From Polytrichum commune (lineage: Eukaryota; Streptophyta; Polytrichopsida; Polytrichales; Polytrichaceae): a DNA stretch of 64,000 nt. A program made the position numbers and the translations under genes. This document shows, one piece after another, positions 18,041 to 63,135 of the stretch (position 1 is its first letter; the number at the start of each line of letters is the position of its first letter). The notes below the pieces were generated by a model. It saw only the letters and a list, made by a program, of their open reading frames with translations. It was not told the origin of the DNA and did not search any database. The stretch spans positions 14,010,001 through 14,074,000 of the forward strand of contig OX485809.1 in NCBI GenBank assembly GCA_950295325.1, in the 5' to 3' direction.

Positions 18041-18756
18041 ATCCCTATTAGTTCGTGGGGGGGTATTTAGCGTCCTCCGTCCAATATTGTTGGCTATCTA
18101 CAATAGGACATGAAAGTTGAACAGTGCACCAGCCAATCTTGTGCGAATATATAATAAATATACAACCCACATCCTTCGATACTGGTATCTAATAGCTGGA
18201 TGCTTGTCCAACATTCCTACCTGAATAGAATTGAGCACTTTATGAACCGATGTTGGGTATATGGGTATATGGGTCAGTCAGGGTATCTACTCTATATTTG
18301 GCCCACATCCTTGAGGACCGGCATTGATACCCGAGTGGAACCCAGTCCCCCTGTCCGGATATGGTCAGCGCAGCCTGAAGGAAGGAAGATTCCCGACCTC
18401 CGGTCGGAGAATTTCCCAGTCAGTTACCACCCCACGACCGGTCGGCGCCGGCTGTTCGCCTCCTTTCTTGTCAGTGACCAGACAGGGCGCACACACCGTC
18501 GGATACGGGACAATGAGCGGCCCGGATCGTGGAAGACAGGGGAGGGGGAGAAGGGGGACGGGAACCCGAGGGAGGGGGGCAGGGGCTCGTGTGTTCCCAA
18601 CTTCCCAGCGCTAGGGTTTGGGGCTCGCAGAGCAAAGGCAGTGCTGGGGTTGCGTCGGGAACGACGAGAATTTGGAGTGTTTTTTGGGCCCTTTTCGGGA
18701 GCGTTGAACTTGTGGAAGTGTTATAAGACAAGCAACCCATCACCAGCCCCTTGGCT

Positions 18757-19730
18757 ATGGTGAAGGTGAAGGGCGTGGAGTGGGGGCACGTCCTGGTGGT
18801 GAAGGAGCCCGAGCGCCATGGCATGGCCACGCTCGTCAAGTGTGCGCACTGCGGGAAGGAGTTCCAGGGCAACGCTATGCGCATCAGGGCTCACTTACTT
18901 GGAAACAAACGATCCGCAGGAGTGTCCGGATGCCCTTCCTGTCCCGAAGAGGCCAGGGAGGAGCTCCGTCTCATCGACTTGGCTAAGTCCCAGGTCAAGC
19001 GGAAGCGCCAGGACCGCACTCCTAGAGCCCCGAGGGCTACTTCCAGCGCGAGTGATCATAGTTTAGAAAGTGGGCAGCAGATTGACATCATGGCTGCCCT
19101 CCAGAAAGGGGAGAAATCCGCTGTGGAGCATGCCTTCCGAAGTATGGTGTTCCAGGCCGGTGGATTGCCTGTCAATTTCGTCAATTTGTCGCCGGTAAAA
19201 TCAGCGGTCAGACTCTCTCTCTCTCTCTCTGTCTCTCTCTGTCTGATTCCCCCCTCAATCTTCCTTGAATTGGTGGATTATCTTGTGTCAGAACTCGTGG
19301 AGCCAATCGTGGTTGGGATTGAGAACCGTCATCTTGTGCAATCCATTGAGAGACCAGAAGTTTTATGATAGTTACCTGCTCAGAAATTTTTAAAATTATA
19401 AACCTTGATTGCAGTCATGGAGCTGGTGCTCGAAAACTACTTTTAGACAACCTTAATCACCCCGCGGGATTTGGACGGGCATACTCAATTTGGCTCCTTC
19501 GTGAATTGGTGGATTATCTTCTGTAAGCATTCGTGGAGCCAATCGTGTTTGGGAATAAGAACCGTCAATTTGTGCTGTTCTTTGCCCAACCAGGGTTTCT
19601 TGATAGTTAACTGCTCAGAATAAAGAGTAAAAGCCTTGATCGCGGTCATGGAGCTGGTGCTTCGATGAAAATTTCTTTCAGACAACCTTAATTGTCCTAA
19701 GGGGGATTTGGACGGGCATACTCGGATCAA

Positions 19731-19767
<37 letters not shown>

Positions 19768-21895
19768 CGCACAAGAAAGTACGGCTTCTCTTCTTGGCAG
19801 GCTCCTCCCTCAATCCTCCGTGAATTGGTGAATTATCTTGTGTCAGAACTTGTGGAGGCAATCCTTGTTGGGAATGAGAACCGTTATCTTGTGCAATCCT
19901 TCGCGCAACCAGGGTTTCTTGATAGTTACCTGCTCAGTTTTAAAATTTTAAAAACCTTGATCGCGGTCATGGAGCTGGTGCTTCGATGAAAACAATTTCC
20001 AGACGACCTTCATTGTCCTCTGGGGATTTAGACGGGCATACTTTGGAACAATGATTTTATTCAGATGGCCTTTTTTTCTTGTCTTCAAATGCCCTTGCAG
20101 CCGCGAAGAATAATGTTTAGAGAGGTGATAGAGTTGGTTCATGGACGAAAGTTATTGCCGGACACCTCAATTGTGCTCTTGAGGATTTGGACGGGTATAG
20201 TCGGAATTATTATTGGAATTGTTCGTAGCGAATGGGCATTTTTGGTCTTTAATTGTGCTTGCAGACCCGAGAGTAATAACTTAGAGAGGCAATAGAGCTG
20301 ATGCCTGGACGAAACCCATGACCTTTGACCTTATTGTCTTGGAACAACGATTTTAATTCTGTGTATCAGATGGATTTTTTTTTGGGGGGGGGGGGGGGGT
20401 GAGGTCTCAAATTGTGCTGGCAGACACAAATATTATGTTTAGAGTTGATAGGGTTGGTCCCTTGGGGTAACTTATTGCCAGACTCCTCAATTTGTGCTTT
20501 GGGGGGATTTGGATGGGTATAGTGTGAACCACTATTGGAAGTGTCCGCATCAAATGAACATTTCAGTCTTCAATTATGCTTGCAGACCCAATAATTATGT
20601 TTAGGGAGGTGATAGAGCTGGTGCCTGACGAAAATTATAACCCTAGACCTTATTCGTCTTGTGGGTACTTGGAGCGGCCATTTTCGAAGCCACTACTTAA
20701 GTTTGTGCATTAAAGATCGAAGTTGTCTCTTTTGCGTTCACAGACACAAAATATTATGGTTTGAGTCCTTGATTATCTTCCACATCCTTGTGGATGATGT
20801 GTAGCGCTCTTGGCAGGAGGTTTTACTTCTTCTGACATAGTTTAGTCTTGATGATATGCAGGCGCCAATTTTAGCTGAAGCCACAGACCTTGAATCCTTC
20901 TTTGATGGATTTGGATTACGACCAGAAACAATCTCCATCATTAAGGAGATGGGCTTCACTGGAAAGACATTTATGTCGAATGTTGATGAGATCCTTACAC
21001 TTCTCGATTCAATTAAACAGCACTGTCATCTAACTCTTGGAGAAGAGTGGGGGATCAAGGGTGCAGCAAAGAAGTGGCAAAAAGGTATTCACCTAAGTGT
21101 TCTTTGAAAAGCAAGTTTAACTCCAGCAGTGTATATGTTCAGCACATGAATAAACTCTCCATACTGTCTTATGAATGCAACGCATTTGTAGAAGAAAGAT
21201 CGAGGAAATACACAGCAAATAACTTGTTTGGAGTGGTAAATTATACGGATGATTAATAGCTCTTGTGCCCCACAGATCATGCGATGGTATTCACTCAACC
21301 AGAACTTGAGAAGTGGCCTGAGACTGATCACGAGACCCCAAATGGTTGCAAGGAGGTGATGTGTATTCGTAAGCACCTCTACTCCCTCCTCTCCTGTAGT
21401 GAACTTGATTTCTTTGTTGCACTTTTCTCTCAGCACCAAGTTGGTTTTGCCGCATAAAGAATATCTGAGTTAGTCTCGGAACATATCTTTATACATGCTT
21501 TGCCTCTGACTTGACCTTTTTGGTTCGCATGTAGCTTCAAGCTAGTTCCAACGGACAAACATGCAGAGGCGATCAAGTGATAGGAACTATGTATGGCTGA
21601 ATGTTGGATGCGATGATACAAATCTCGGCTAAAGTCACGGCTGATATTTTCTCAATGTAAGATATACCAATACAGCTGGGCTTTTCAAAGTTCACTGAGG
21701 TTGCAGTGTAAGATATATGAGGAGAGTCAACGTGGCAGGAGATTTGTGGAGCTCATGCTAGCAAAGTGGCATAAATAGCTAACATCTTTGTAAACTGTGG
21801 GTGAACAGAAGCCGAGTAGGGCTGCTGGAGAGTATACGACATTTAGGAGAGCTGGAGTGGAAGATGAGAATCTGAATGATGATGTTTTTTGGTGA
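18757..21895 (+). CDS. BED zinc-finger protein with LEAFY-type SAM domain (novel architecture)
   Basis: Proposed exons are 18757-19194, 20862-21084, 21276-21355 and, less surely, 21809-21895. All have GT/AG borders and the phases agree, giving about 275 residues. Exon 1 encodes a BED finger: W9, C29-x2-C32, H46 and C59, with RIRAHLLG between. It is followed by a basic patch and a stretch (FQAGGLPVNFVNLSP) like the segment before the catalytic core of hAT transposases. Exon 2 encodes DLESFFDGFGLRPETISIIK, EMGFTGKTF and LGEEWGIKGAAKK, which match the N-terminal SAM oligomerisation domain of LEAFY/FLORICAULA (family pattern: LE-x2-F, GFT, GE-x-x-GIK-x-A). Exon 3 and the last exon are acidic and unassigned. 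No LEAFY DNA-binding domain is seen downstream. Inferred role: a nuclear DNA-binding, self-associating protein, perhaps transposon-derived. The ATG at 18757 is preferred over an upstream TTG. Alternatively, exon 2 could start a separate gene at the ATG at 20856. Confidence 0.6.
19209..20700. repeat. Intron-1 repeat array of the BED/LFY-SAM gene
   Basis: Three direct copies of a ~235-bp unit occupy about 19251-19485, 19493-19718 and 19801-20043. Each runs from GAATTGGTG-ATTATCTT to GGANTTNGACGGGCATACT. Shorter partial units carrying the GACGGGTATA or GATAGAGCTGGTG part follow at about 20100-20200, 20270-20330, 20440-20520 and 20580-20690. CT microsatellites precede copies 1 and 3 (19211-19243 and 19734-19764). 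Copies 1 and 3 are open in one frame with the related peptide ELV-YLVSELVE, while copy 2 has stops. The array may come from a duplicated, now dead exon. Confidence 0.75.
20384..20399. repeat. Poly(G) tract inside intron 1
   Basis: Sixteen consecutive G follow a T run. The tract is one of several long G or C runs in the window. Confidence 0.9.
20862..21084 (+). other. Exon coding the LEAFY-like SAM domain
   Basis: The exon lies between TGATATGCAG and the donor AAAG|GTATTC. It starts in phase 0 and ends after one base of a codon. It holds nearly the whole LFY-type SAM domain (about 70 residues), including the Gly-Phe-Thr and Gly-Ile-Lys positions conserved across LEAFY proteins. Confidence 0.75.
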
Positions 21896-39294: not shown

Positions 39295-41475
39295 TTATAC
39301 AGGAAGGTTCCTTACCACCAGCCCAGCCCTTCGCTCCCTGTTTGATCGCTCCCGCCGCGCCTCAATTATACATATACAATGGACCGTGGCAAGCTTGGAG
39401 CAGCCACTTGTGATTAATGATGTCCGCTCCGGACATGTGTGAAGCTCAGGGAACGCATTACACACTGCTTGCACAGCCTGCGCAGACAAGGAAGTGCACC
39501 CACTAAGGTTCAACGATACCAGACCATGACGGTTGTACTTCTCTCCAAGTAGCGTGTCCAACCCCTCTTTCCTTGTTACAGGAAGCTTGGTGGCATCGCT
39601 ACTACATGTGCTACCACTGCTGCTGCAGCTGCTCGTGGTGCTGTTTGTGTTGTAGTATCTGTGCACTGGAAAACGGCCATCCAAGTTCCTCAACCCTCCC
39701 TTCTTGGACGTTATACTGTGCTTGGAGAATTCGGGTTTGCTTTGTTTGCCGTTTCTGGCAAGTGTGTACATTGCATCGTCAGTGACGAGGCGGCAACAGT
39801 GGAGCCCCAAAGCACACAGTTGGGGGCAGTTGTCTGACAATGCTTTGACACTAAGATCTGCAGGAGGGAAAGTTAACCAAAGCGCAAAGGTCAGTATCTC
39901 TGCAACTCTAGGCAATTTTTGACTTTCAGCCTCAACTACACAAAACATAAATTAACCAGCAGTTGATAGTGCATAGCATCCTTAAGCATGTGTGGGACAT
40001 TCTCTTTCTATTCTAGCTCCAGAAGCAAATACATGCAATGAATGCCAACCGTTTAGTCAGCACCTCATTGTTACCTATCTTCGGACAAAGCCTTCTTCCA
40101 TCTACAAAGATTTAACTTAAAGAACTTGCCAAAAAGAAACTCACTGAGTGTATACTCTCCAAGATGCTTATCAAGGGTGAACAAGCACTACACCACTTAA
40201 GAATGCTATGTGAGTTTCTAAAATGTGAATTGTGGCAAGTTTGACTGAACTTTATCTAAACCTGAGGAATGGGTCTCAGCCTTTGCATCAGTGTCACTTT
40301 GAGTGCAGCTACTCATCCAAACAGTTGAGGATGGAACAAACCTGTGATGTGACTACATCCACATAGGTCTACGACACGCATATCTGGGCAGCCTTGGGTC
40401 AATGCTATCACACCCTTATCAGTAATGTGTTCACACCAGCCCAAATTAAGTGATTGGAGGCCTCTGCAATGCTGCGCTAGTGCCTACATGCAGCACAGTT
40501 CAGACAGCAAATATTAGATTCAACCTAATGGATGATGCGCATCTCCATTCGATACATGCCACTTACAATTGAAGCCTTGTCAGTCCGTACCAAATATTAA
40601 AAAATAAATTTCGAAGTATAAACAAATCGTTCCCTGCAAATGAATACCTGTAGATCTTGTGGTGTTTAGCAGATAAGTACAACTTGAACAACATCAGATC
40701 ACAACCATACATGCGACAAAGGAAGGGCTTGTGTACCTGCAATGCTGTGTCTGTACCACCACTATCACAACCACAGAGGTTGAGATGGCGCAAATTGTTG
40801 CAATGCTGTGCAAGAATTACAAGTCCAGCTTGTGTGATTCCTGTACAACCACTTAAATCTAGCTTCTCAAGAAGTGGACAGCCCTCCGCTAATGCACGTA
40901 AGCAAGCATCGGTCAGTTGTGTGCCAAAGGTGAGATCTAAGGTCTTCAGTCCATGCCAATTTCTTGCAGCTGCTTCAATTGCTGTATCATCCAAGGCACA
41001 ACACCGTCGCAATTTGCAACACTGAAGGTTTGGAAATCTAGGAGCAACGGACTGGACCAGTCTGCTCACGCCATGGCCACACCTGATCGTAGTAGTAGCA
41101 CTAGTCATCAGCATTAAAGTAACATGTGATGGAATCCATATCATGTGGTAGCAAAATCACGTGTACAAAGGAAGAGATATCAAACACCAGATAGAGTGTA
41201 CTCGTAGGAGATTCTCACCATGAGAATGAAAGATCATGAATGCCCATTCCTACAGAGTAACGCCAGCCGCTACATACTCCGGATGCTACTATAACTGTCC
41301 GATTGTCCACCAGTGCAAGGATTCGAACCAACAACTCCATTGGAAGGTCATGCCACTTGGTCTCTGTCTTCTCAGGCACTTCAGCTGCATGACCTTCCTT
41401 TGAAGCAGTTCCAGAATTTCGCATTTTATTCAGGCGCTTCCACTTTCGTTTCATATCTGGTGGAGCTGATTCCAT
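39295..41475 (-). CDS. SKP2A-like: F-box/LRR protein of the SKP2A/SKP2B type
   Basis: Coding exons (transcript order) are 41611/41475-41219, 41082-40737, 40483-40342 and 39857-39295. They splice in phase to 435 residues from the ATG at 41475. Residues 40-85 are the F-box (KWHDLPMELLVRILALV, CSGWR). About eleven leucine-rich repeats follow (LEKLDLSGCTGITQAG, LRHLNLCGC, LQSLNLGWCEHITDKG, MRVVDLCGCSHIT, LVSLNLSGCTSLS). The end matches SKP2A/B: AVQAVCNAFPELHTC...HCICIIEA. In Arabidopsis SKP2A is an SCF substrate receptor for E2FC/DPB and binds auxin. Compared with it, this protein has a ~40-residue Ser/Thr-rich insertion in the last exon. The frame stays open upstream of 41475 to an acceptor at 41611 (with a KKRARK basic motif), so the true start may lie in an unidentified upstream exon. 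Confidence 0.92.
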
Positions 41476-42279
41476 CTCATCCTCCTCTGAATTCCAAAAG
41501 AATTGTGATAGTGTTGATGAATTGAAGGGGTGTTTTCTTGCCCTTTTCTTGTGCGGTTCAGCAGGTCCTTGATCCCCACTCTTTCCATTATTGAAGTCAC
41601 TATCATATGTCCTGCGAAAATCATAGAGTTGGCCTGTCCAATGCAACAAAATACCTCTGCTCAGAACATTGCTAAAAAAAATGTACACATTGCCATTGAT
41701 GATCACATTGAGTATATAAGAATCATCTCAACCTTAATAGTTCCAAATTAAGAATAAAAACATAGGTTCTATCGGGTTCAGCATAGGTCACTAGTGCACC
41801 TAATAAGGATAATTCTCCAAGCAATACATGTATTCATTTATTCACAGAAGATTAAAAACTGGCTCACTTGTAGTGTATCATCAACACAACAGGAGAGGCA
41901 CGTATGTATCATGCCAACCATCGTCCTGAGGCACCAATCGATGAACATCCAGTTCTAATATTGAAAGATTCTACATATTCATTTCATCGACATCTGTTTG
42001 CAATCCCAGTATTATGGCGTTAGGAACAAAAACAGTGAATTGAGAGCCATCCAAACACACAGGTACCTCTTAAAATTCAAGTCAGTTAACATTCTCAACA
42101 AGTGATAACCTTGAAATTGTAAATGCTTGAAGGACCCATCTTCAGCCCACATTAACAATATTGTGAAACGACCAACTAAATTAATCAACTGTACTCAATG
42201 CTTAAATTTTGTTTAAACCTTGGAAGGACCCTCTTCTTTCGCATTCCAGCCCCACATTGTGAGCAGAAAGGTCATCATC

Positions 42280-60070: not shown

Positions 60071-60490
60071 CTACTCCTACTCCTACTCCTACTCCTACTC
60101 TACCTTGTTCAAGAAAGCTACAGGATTTTCACCCACATAACCCAAAACTCGCACGGTCGAGTTCAAAGCCTTCCAACGGAAAGCCAGGAGACCTGTGTGG
60201 GGTTATCGGACATTAAACATTTGGGCGTCGTCCCCAATCTTACGGACACTCCAATCAAGCAGATTGACGGCCTGGATTTGAGGACAGGGGAAGAAGGCAA
60301 GGGTTGTGCGATATGATACAAGTCAGCCTCTTCCCCAAACACGGAACGCCACTTCATGTGCCAGATGGTGAAACCCTAAACCCTGCCACTCCTACTCTTA
60401 GTACTTTGGTTGAAGAAAGCTGCTACAAGATTCGTACACCCAAATAACCCGAACTCGACGAGGAGTCGAAGTGAAAGCCTTCCAAGGAAA
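60071..60490. repeat. Duplicated 3' end of the CCX gene
   Basis: The segments at about 60071-60185 and 60385-60490 share ACTCCTACTC, GAAGAAAGCT-CTACA-GATT, CACCCA-ATAACCC-AACTCG and AAAGCCTTCCAA-GGAAA. The second contains the stop and last codons of the CCX exon. The first lies just past its end and carries a (CTACTC)5 microsatellite (60071-60100). Confidence 0.75.
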
Positions 60491-63135
60491 TCAATCCGAG
60501 GCTGTTGGCCAGTCGAAGTGACATGAACGAGGCGTACAGAAACAAGAGGCCAACCCCCAACACCTTACTCGGTGCCATCTTACGAGACGGAAGCACAATC
60601 AGCGACCACAGCAAGCTGAGAAACAGGAACCCGATAGTGTAGATTACTGTGTCGTCTTCCGGGAGGATTAGAGGTTTTGGGAACCGTTTCCAGCTCGCGA
60701 GTACAAATGAGAGCCCCAAGCCCACGAGCGTGTTGAACATCGGCCCTGCGAAGCATCCTGAGATCACGATTTGAATATTGGCCGCCCTCTGTTCTTCGTC
60801 GTCCCCGCCACGCGCAAACGCAAGGTTCGAAATCAAGTCCCCGATCGAGTTCCCCCACGCGAGGACGGTGAGACCCAAAATGGCTGAATCGATCTCGAAG
60901 ATGACCCCGAGGGCAACAAGAGCCGCGACAAGTTCGTTGGCAATCAAGTAGAACCACACGATGCTCATGATGAATCCTCCCACCACCCACGGCAACGACC
61001 AACGTGTCGGAGGATGGTCTTCTTCCAAAGAGAAATAGGCCAAGCTGCCTAAAATGATTCCCACAATGATACCAAACATGTACACACCAGGGCTGCTCCC
61101 AAACGGCTCCCCGTCATTGCTGTCCCAAACTCCAGCTAACAATGTCGGGGCTAATGTTGCACTTGCAATCGCATAATTCCAAGACCACCGGTCTACTTCG
61201 ACAATGGGAATCGTGAGGCGGCGTGGTAGGCTGAGAGGCAGGTCCAGGATCTCCCACATCGTCATCCCACATGTGGGTTCCTGCTTGCAAATACATAACA
61301 CACAGCAAGGTGGTGAGTTATAACCAATGTTGGACCGGTATATAGGTGAATGCATGGTATCAAAAGGTAACCAACATCAATAATGGTATCAAGAACCTAC
61401 CTGCCTGGTATCAAAATTGCAATACCAGTGAAATATTGGTAGTTGGCGAGTATCTCAAGGTGAGAGAAACTTTGTATACCCGAGCTATTATTTGGGTCCA
61501 TACCATTCCAAATCAGATTGATACTAGGACGATTGTACCTAGGTGTGAAGATTCCTCGATGGTATATAGACCTGAACGGTATTGAAAAACAAAAAACTCC
61601 TCAAATACCCATACCCTACTGGAATCAAAAATTGGGAAATCCTCCCTACATATACCCAAATAGTATCAAATGAAGATGACACCAGTCCAACACTGGAATG
61701 GAAAACAAAAGTCACCAAATCCTTCCAAAACCTTTGGAACCGAAATGAGAAACAAAGACACCAAATGCCTCTTGACGTGCTCTACTGAAAGTTTAGTATG
61801 TTCACAAGTTGTTCAACCAATATCATGGCTGCTGAAACTAGCTTTGTCATGAGCACGTTGCCATGCTAGACGAAGTATTTTGTGTATACTTTTGTCAATG
61901 ATCAAAACATCGAGGCAATTATGGACTAGGTGTTGTATGGAATGAGGTATAGATGCAAGGTGTAGCCGAAGCCAGTTGCACTTGAGTCGTGGCACTTGGA
62001 GTGCTTAGTCCTGACATGACAAGTAACCGGCAGCCATGCGAATCTCATACCAGAAAAAGCCGGGTAATTGGCACAAGTTGGCCAGTTATTGAATCATGGA
62101 AGCCGGTGCTACCCTGTACCCTCCTGGTACAAAGGATGCAAAGGCCTACGAAAACTATGGCCAGTAGCCGTGCAAATTCCATACCAATACCAGACATAAT
62201 CGGATGACTGAGATAGGTCGAGCAGGTCAAAGACCTGTAGTAACCGGTGCTACCTTGTTCCTTCATGGTATGAAGGACTAGGGGGGCTGAACATTTGTGC
62301 CACTCAAGTACGTTGAGGGTTAAAAGGTTGGGAACCTCTTATACCTCGGCGGTTTCTTTTCTTAGCAAATTTGACCCCATGATTAGCATCAGAGACACTG
62401 AATTAGTCTAGTGGGATTGAGTTGAGATTGATCAACCATAAACCTATATGGGGTAGGTTTTTACTGCGACCCCTTACATGAACAGCATGAATCCTAAGCT
62501 GCTACGGGGAAGGTGTCGTGGTACACAGGGCACTGGCTACAGGGTGTATTAGGTGTGCTTCTGAGCCAATCACAACACGACATATTGGCGAGACCTGTCC
62601 CAAAATTGGCTATGATAGCACAACAAGTTCCAGATTAGGGTTTCCCCCTCTTGACTTCTTGGCTTCTCATGGCAGGAGTAGCTAGCGTTAGTCATGCCAC
62701 CCTAAACCAATGTTTTAGTGTGGCCCACACTGTTGATCATCGACCCACATAGATTGCTTTGCAACCACTGTGTGGAACCCAGAGAGGGTGTATATGACAC
62801 TTGGTGCTACATGACAAGCAACGAAGACTACTCTAATTAACATGGCACACCAATTTTACTGCCACACTAGATCAGATACTTAGTGTGGCTCTTGGTTATA
62901 ATCTCTTGTCTTGGGTAGGAGCTTACCTCATGTTCTATGTTTGGCGACGTATAGCCCCCAGCATGTTCGGTCTCCGCCATTAATTCTTCAAGTGCAGCTG
63001 CCATGCTCGTGTGCGAGTAGATTGCAATATGGTGTGCTTGTACTTCCCATGGGGTCGTGGGAAATTCATCAGTAGTATCAGAGCTCACCCCTGGTTCTTC
63101 TGCATCGCTTTGAAGGCTGCCATTCGAAATCGAAT
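60423..63135 (-). CDS. CCX-like: Cation/calcium exchanger (CCX family), C-terminal part, 5' end outside the window
   Basis: Two exons are visible, 63135-62927 and 61283 (or 61280)-60423, joined in phase 0 across a 1.64-kb intron. The first encodes an acidic cytosolic-loop segment (EEPGVSSDTTDEFPTTPWEV, LEELMAETEHAGGYTSP). The second has LPLSLPRRLTIP, the loop end that precedes the second half in plant CCX proteins, followed by six or more membrane segments. It carries the alpha-2 repeat LGLTVLAWGNSIGDLISNLA with the conserved G-N-S-x-G-D ion-binding core, then ISGCFAGPMFNTLVGLG. CCX proteins exchange Na+, K+ or Ca2+ against H+ or other cations in endomembranes or plasma membrane. The protein ends with a Ser-rich tail. 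The alpha-1 half and the promoter would lie right of 64000. No stops interrupt the visible part. Confidence 0.9.
61346..62860. repeat. Repeats inside the long CCX intron
   Basis: At about 62030-62280 a ~141-bp unit occurs twice, with CCGGTGCTACC-TGT-CC-TC-TGGTA near 62102 and 62243 and CATACCA-ACCAGA before each. At 61350-61600 many GGTATCAAAA and AATACC words recur. No coding sequence was recognised on the plus strand. Confidence 0.6.

Follow-up and report, generated by a model that had tools for sequence, protein, structure and literature searches.

A moss gene family encoding a BED-like zinc finger and a LEAFY-type SAM domain in one protein, with a possible role in cooperative DNA binding

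Introduction

The LEAFY/FLORICAULA proteins combine an N-terminal SAM domain (SAM_LFY, PF01698) with a DNA-binding domain (C_LFY_FLO, PF17538). Animal ETS factors, such as YAN and TEL, likewise unite a DNA-binding domain with an oligomerising SAM domain in a single protein, with both the SAM family and the DNA-binding fold being different from those of the protein described here; its likeness to them would lie in having the two activities together. YAN is also named in PMC4844672, in which the LEAFY polymer interface is described as T72, T75 and E83 of one face meeting R112 and R116 of the other; changing T75 or R112 abolishes oligomers, and LEAFY SAMs mutated on a single face still pair with each other. 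According to passages of PMC6588583 and PMC8742948, LEAFY is characterised by two domains, SAM_LFY being one of them. A third point of comparison is provided by the hAT transposases with BED fingers and the domesticated SLEEPER/DAYSLEEPER and ZBED proteins, whose N-terminal finger has the pattern CxxC...H and lies close to a basic stretch; in SLEEPER proteins, a passage of PMC3499209 places a K/R-rich nuclear localisation signal next to the BED finger.

Here we describe a single nuclear gene of the moss Polytrichum commune, lying in a window of 64,000 nucleotides (the whole stretch of DNA analysed), and its relatives, for which we use the family name BED-SAM_LFY. The protein resembles LEAFY in its SAM_LFY domain, by Pfam, by best fold match and by the residue classes of the interface, whereas its SAM lies C-terminal to a C2HC finger and the LEAFY DNA-binding domain is missing. 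It shares a finger of the CxxC...H pattern and the adjoining basic stretch with the hAT-related proteins; in contrast to these, it has no match to a hAT domain, and the SAM would be its oligomerisation module. We found no description of a BED-finger and SAM_LFY architecture in the mostly open-access literature searched. The word BED is absent from the LEAFY-evolution papers PMC6588583 and PMC8742948, the former using "zinc finger" once, and passages of PMC4189582 deal with maize and millet.

Results

Gene model and spliced product

The gene encodes a product of 258 residues, with a C2HC BED-like finger, a basic linker and a LEAFY-type SAM domain in N- to C-terminal order. Its features are as follows:

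18757..19206, plus strand: exon 1, with start codon, BED-like C2HC finger and basic linker (P0002 residues 1-150, 99%)
18778..18945, plus strand: BED-like zinc finger, residues ~8-63
18841, 18850, 18892 and 18931, plus strand: presumed finger ligands C29, C32, H46 and C59, respectively, invariant in 30 aligned proteins
18985..19035, plus strand: K/R-rich stretch 3' of the finger, putative nuclear localisation signal, residues 77-93
19207..20861, plus strand: intron 1, phase 0, GT/AG, separating the finger exon from the SAM exon
20862..21084, plus strand: exon 2, almost the whole LEAFY-type SAM domain (P0002 residues 151-224)
21276..21368, plus strand: exon 3, final part of the last predicted SAM helix, then the tail (P0002 residues 225-255)
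21535..21545, plus strand: exon 4, PSS and the stop TAG, the same in P0002

The ATG at 18757 is preceded by an in-frame stop at 18724, and all three introns have GT/AG borders. The protein record P0002 (258 aa; sources jgi and lgn) is identical to the model at 251 of 258 residues, and in tblastn its consecutive pieces cover the exons one after another. As the gene spans 2789 bp and the contig of P0002 is at most 1152 nt, we infer that P0002 derives from spliced sequence; given its match to the model, the finger and SAM exons form one spliced product, bearing out the fusion that an earlier note on this DNA had proposed. That note was correct about the phase 0 of the junction. It had put the exon 1 donor at 19194, which is 12 nt short: P0002 retains the residues VKSA, and we rejected this donor in favor of 19206/19207 (GT at 19207), which yields the agreement with P0002 and GT/AG borders at every intron. 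The start that it gave for the third exon (21276) holds, but this exon runs to 21368 rather than 21355, followed by the short fourth exon. Intron 1 consists mostly of diverged internal duplications of several families, spaced at ~160 or 320 bp, with copies 61-87% like their reference, and also contains CT tracts.

Of the 163 open frames in the window that reach 70 aa, we scanned 20 besides this gene, which gave three Pfam matches with E <=0.01 and no match to a transposase:

40566-41156, minus strand: leucine-rich repeats (Pfam, E <=0.01)
41218-41727, minus strand: F-box (Pfam, E <=0.01)
60426-61376, minus strand: sodium/calcium exchanger domain (Pfam, 95.1 bits)

The F-box and leucine-rich-repeat exons (40566-41727) possibly belong to one F-box/LRR gene. 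No tRNA or Rfam family reached its gathering score in the window.

A LEAFY-type SAM domain without the LEAFY DNA-binding domain

The SAM exon matches Pfam SAM_LFY with 37.8 bits (E 1.9e-9; cut-off 25.2) and, in phmmer, the crystallised SAM of Ginkgo LEAFY (4ude, E 5.9e-5), which is also the best match of the predicted SAM fold; the LFY-type SAM read in exon 20862-21084 by the earlier note is thus confirmed. SAM_LFY is likewise matched in 13 of 30 family members, the number carrying the SAM. A profile of 16 LFY proteins, run over the six frames of the window as stop-to-stop pieces of at least 25 aa, recovered the SAM exon (E 7e-11), with the five other rows at E >2, and found no C_LFY_FLO, as had been supposed from the start. 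In tblastn, four out of five LEAFY proteins hit the SAM exon, the only other rows being two at chance level (E 0.97). C_LFY_FLO is also missing among the Pfam matches of 10 relatives, as it is among those precomputed for the family records. The precomputed matches include PF26664 for several relatives, a family that appears in none of the Pfam scans made here.

A BED-like finger and the question of transposon origin

The finger matches Pfam zf-BED below the cut-off of 20.6 (13.7 bits, or 15.3 when trimmed), as the fourth among its weak matches. A weak zf-BED match recurs in all 10 trimmed members, is found in 17 out of 30 longer members at E <=1, and in two out of 10 at E <=0.1. A PDB profile search with the finger returned 11 rows, with no BED entry among them, and the presumed fourth ligand follows the finger histidine by 10 or 12 residues across the family records, another difference from the hAT-related fingers. 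We consider the BED label plausible for a finger scoring below the Pfam threshold. Neither the three exon pieces of the 258-aa protein nor the 10 relatives match a hAT transposase or hATC region in Pfam. These results do not demonstrate the transposon origin that the earlier note proposed, and the presence of the architecture in Sphagnum, Physcomitrium and Ceratodon indicates that the fusion is not a recent event.

A family of moss proteins

Two protein searches yielded 46 family records (P0002-P0047), which by sequence patterns carry both domains (16), the finger only (24), the SAM only (5) or neither (1). Among the two-domain records, the first residue is absent from P0006, P0009 is cut short and P0011 apparently reads through an intron. 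All records with a named organism come from mosses, namely Physcomitrium patens, Ceratodon purpureus and four Sphagnum species, and no organism-named relative was found outside mosses at E <=1 by a search that depends on shared 5-residue words and can miss distant ones. The architecture thus recurs in other mosses. The organism-named record closest to the window protein is P0003 of Physcomitrium (87%); among the other records, P0002 and P0013 are the nearest. A tree built from the window protein together with 15 relatives resolves separate clades, Physcomitrium being present in three (P0003, P0012 and P0020), and places Sphagnum in one group with two further records (support 74).

The 24 finger-only records diverge or end at the exon 1 donor, frequently with a V or VR, as judged by junction pattern for 22 and by eye for two. 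Most of them hence probably represent reading frames of unspliced genomic DNA, and the position and phase of intron 1 are conserved. Between the window protein and P0004-P0009, identity amounts to 82-86% in the finger, 74-77% in the SAM and 53-68% in the linker, a pattern that function of the two domains in one chain would give. Two variants were also seen: P0040 of Physcomitrium patens has a SAM_LFY behind a different N-terminus devoid of a finger, reflecting either truncation of the model or a genuine paralogue without the finger, and the clade of P0017, P0040, P0044 and P0046 displays an extended, conserved C-terminal tail that is rich in glutamine and proline and ends in TF; this tail is absent from the window gene. 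Several members bear the database name "Floricaula/leafy-like transcription factor", which looks automatic and is misleading since the LEAFY DNA-binding domain is absent. The earlier note's remark of knowing no such described family agrees with the literature searched, but the databases contain members under this name.

The polymer interface

We compared the interface positions in 16 SAMs, comprising the window protein, 13 two-domain records and two SAM-only records. The positions of T72, T75 and E83 are T, T and E in all 16, the match of the E hinging on gap placement; that of R112 is K in all 16 and that of R116 is K or R in 15. P0040 is the only SAM without a basic residue at the latter (L). 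The consensus sequences of the BED-SAM and LEAFY SAMs agree in residue at 24 of 71 columns and in residue group at 40 of 71, and the chance of five out of five interface positions agreeing in kind, given this group agreement, is 0.05. This conservation is only suggestive of retained polymerisation, and it makes self-association of the moss protein plausible.

Discussion

We posit, as the probable reading, that the BED-SAM_LFY protein is a cooperative DNA-binding regulator of mosses, in which the finger contacts DNA and the SAM forms head-to-tail oligomers. The N-terminal C2HC finger would most likely provide the DNA contact, the basic stretch beside it would drive nuclear import, and the C-terminal SAM most likely oligomerises head-to-tail by analogy with LEAFY. 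Judging from fold and interface, several fingers could thereby bind clustered or weak sites cooperatively. A role as a regulator rather than an enzyme is favored because no other recognisable domain is present. The simplest reading couples polymerisation to DNA binding by the finger, each functional step being a prediction.

The protein might instead act mainly by joining LEAFY polymers. Its SAM would then mix with that of moss LEAFY, and would either recruit the finger to the sites of LEAFY or cap LEAFY oligomers and limit them. The two families agree in kind on both faces of the interface, LEAFY SAMs mutated on a single face can still pair mutually, as noted above, and mosses possess LEAFY proteins with their own SAM (P0049 of Ceratodon, P0050 and P0074 of Sphagnum jensenii and P0068 of Sphagnum compactum). 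For the comparison with LEAFY, a search gave 405 proteins with E <=0.001 among 441 candidates, 20 being taken among the 120 matches listed, and 17 LEAFY SAMs were used, from mosses, Marchantia, the hornwort Nothoceros, ferns, Equisetum, a lycophyte (partial) and seed plants. Identity between the window SAM and each of these amounts to only 30-34%, and the 16 BED-SAM SAMs are split from the 17 LEAFY SAMs at 100% ultrafast bootstrap by a long branch (2.38 substitutions per site), such that cross-binding may have been lost. We hence regard this alternative as rather unlikely.

In the same SAM tree, which cannot be rooted, the LEAFYs join next to one of the BED-SAM clades, at a low support of 30-40. 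Recent descent of this SAM from a single moss LEAFY is unsupported, the window SAM being about equidistant from all 17 and the long branch unrootable, and the even identities mean that the donor is not traceable to one LEAFY. Either the two kinds of SAM separated long ago or the copy, once captured, evolved rapidly. Since mosses keep LEAFY proteins with their own SAM, BED-SAM_LFY represents an addition and not a replacement.

It is also possible, if improbable, that the SAM no longer polymerises and serves as a monomeric or dimeric protein-binding module, the protein being an adaptor. Compared with LEAFY, this SAM lacks one residue next to the E83 position and two further on (alignment columns 45 and 57-58), and R112 is replaced by K; however, all interface charge classes are retained in 15-16 of the 16 SAMs. 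That a separate finger gene and SAM gene were joined on paper, as the 24 finger-only and five SAM-only records might hint, is very improbable in view of both-domain records in several species, the conserved phase-0 junction and finger-only records that stop at the donor.

This small moss gene family, in which the self-assembly module of LEAFY sits behind a zinc finger, suggests that the module has been reused in a second kind of regulator. A conserved moss SAM_LFY behind another DNA-binding-type head shows that the module is separable and reusable, and BED-SAM_LFY offers a system independent of LEAFY in which the contribution of SAM polymerisation to DNA binding can be addressed. Annotation is also affected, as automatic names based on SAM_LFY can miscount moss LEAFY genes. 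Finally, these proteins are possible partners of LEAFY in mosses: we consider it a long shot that their SAM co-polymerises with moss LEAFY, in which case mixed filaments of finger-bound and LEAFY-bound sites could tune LEAFY in the first zygotic division.
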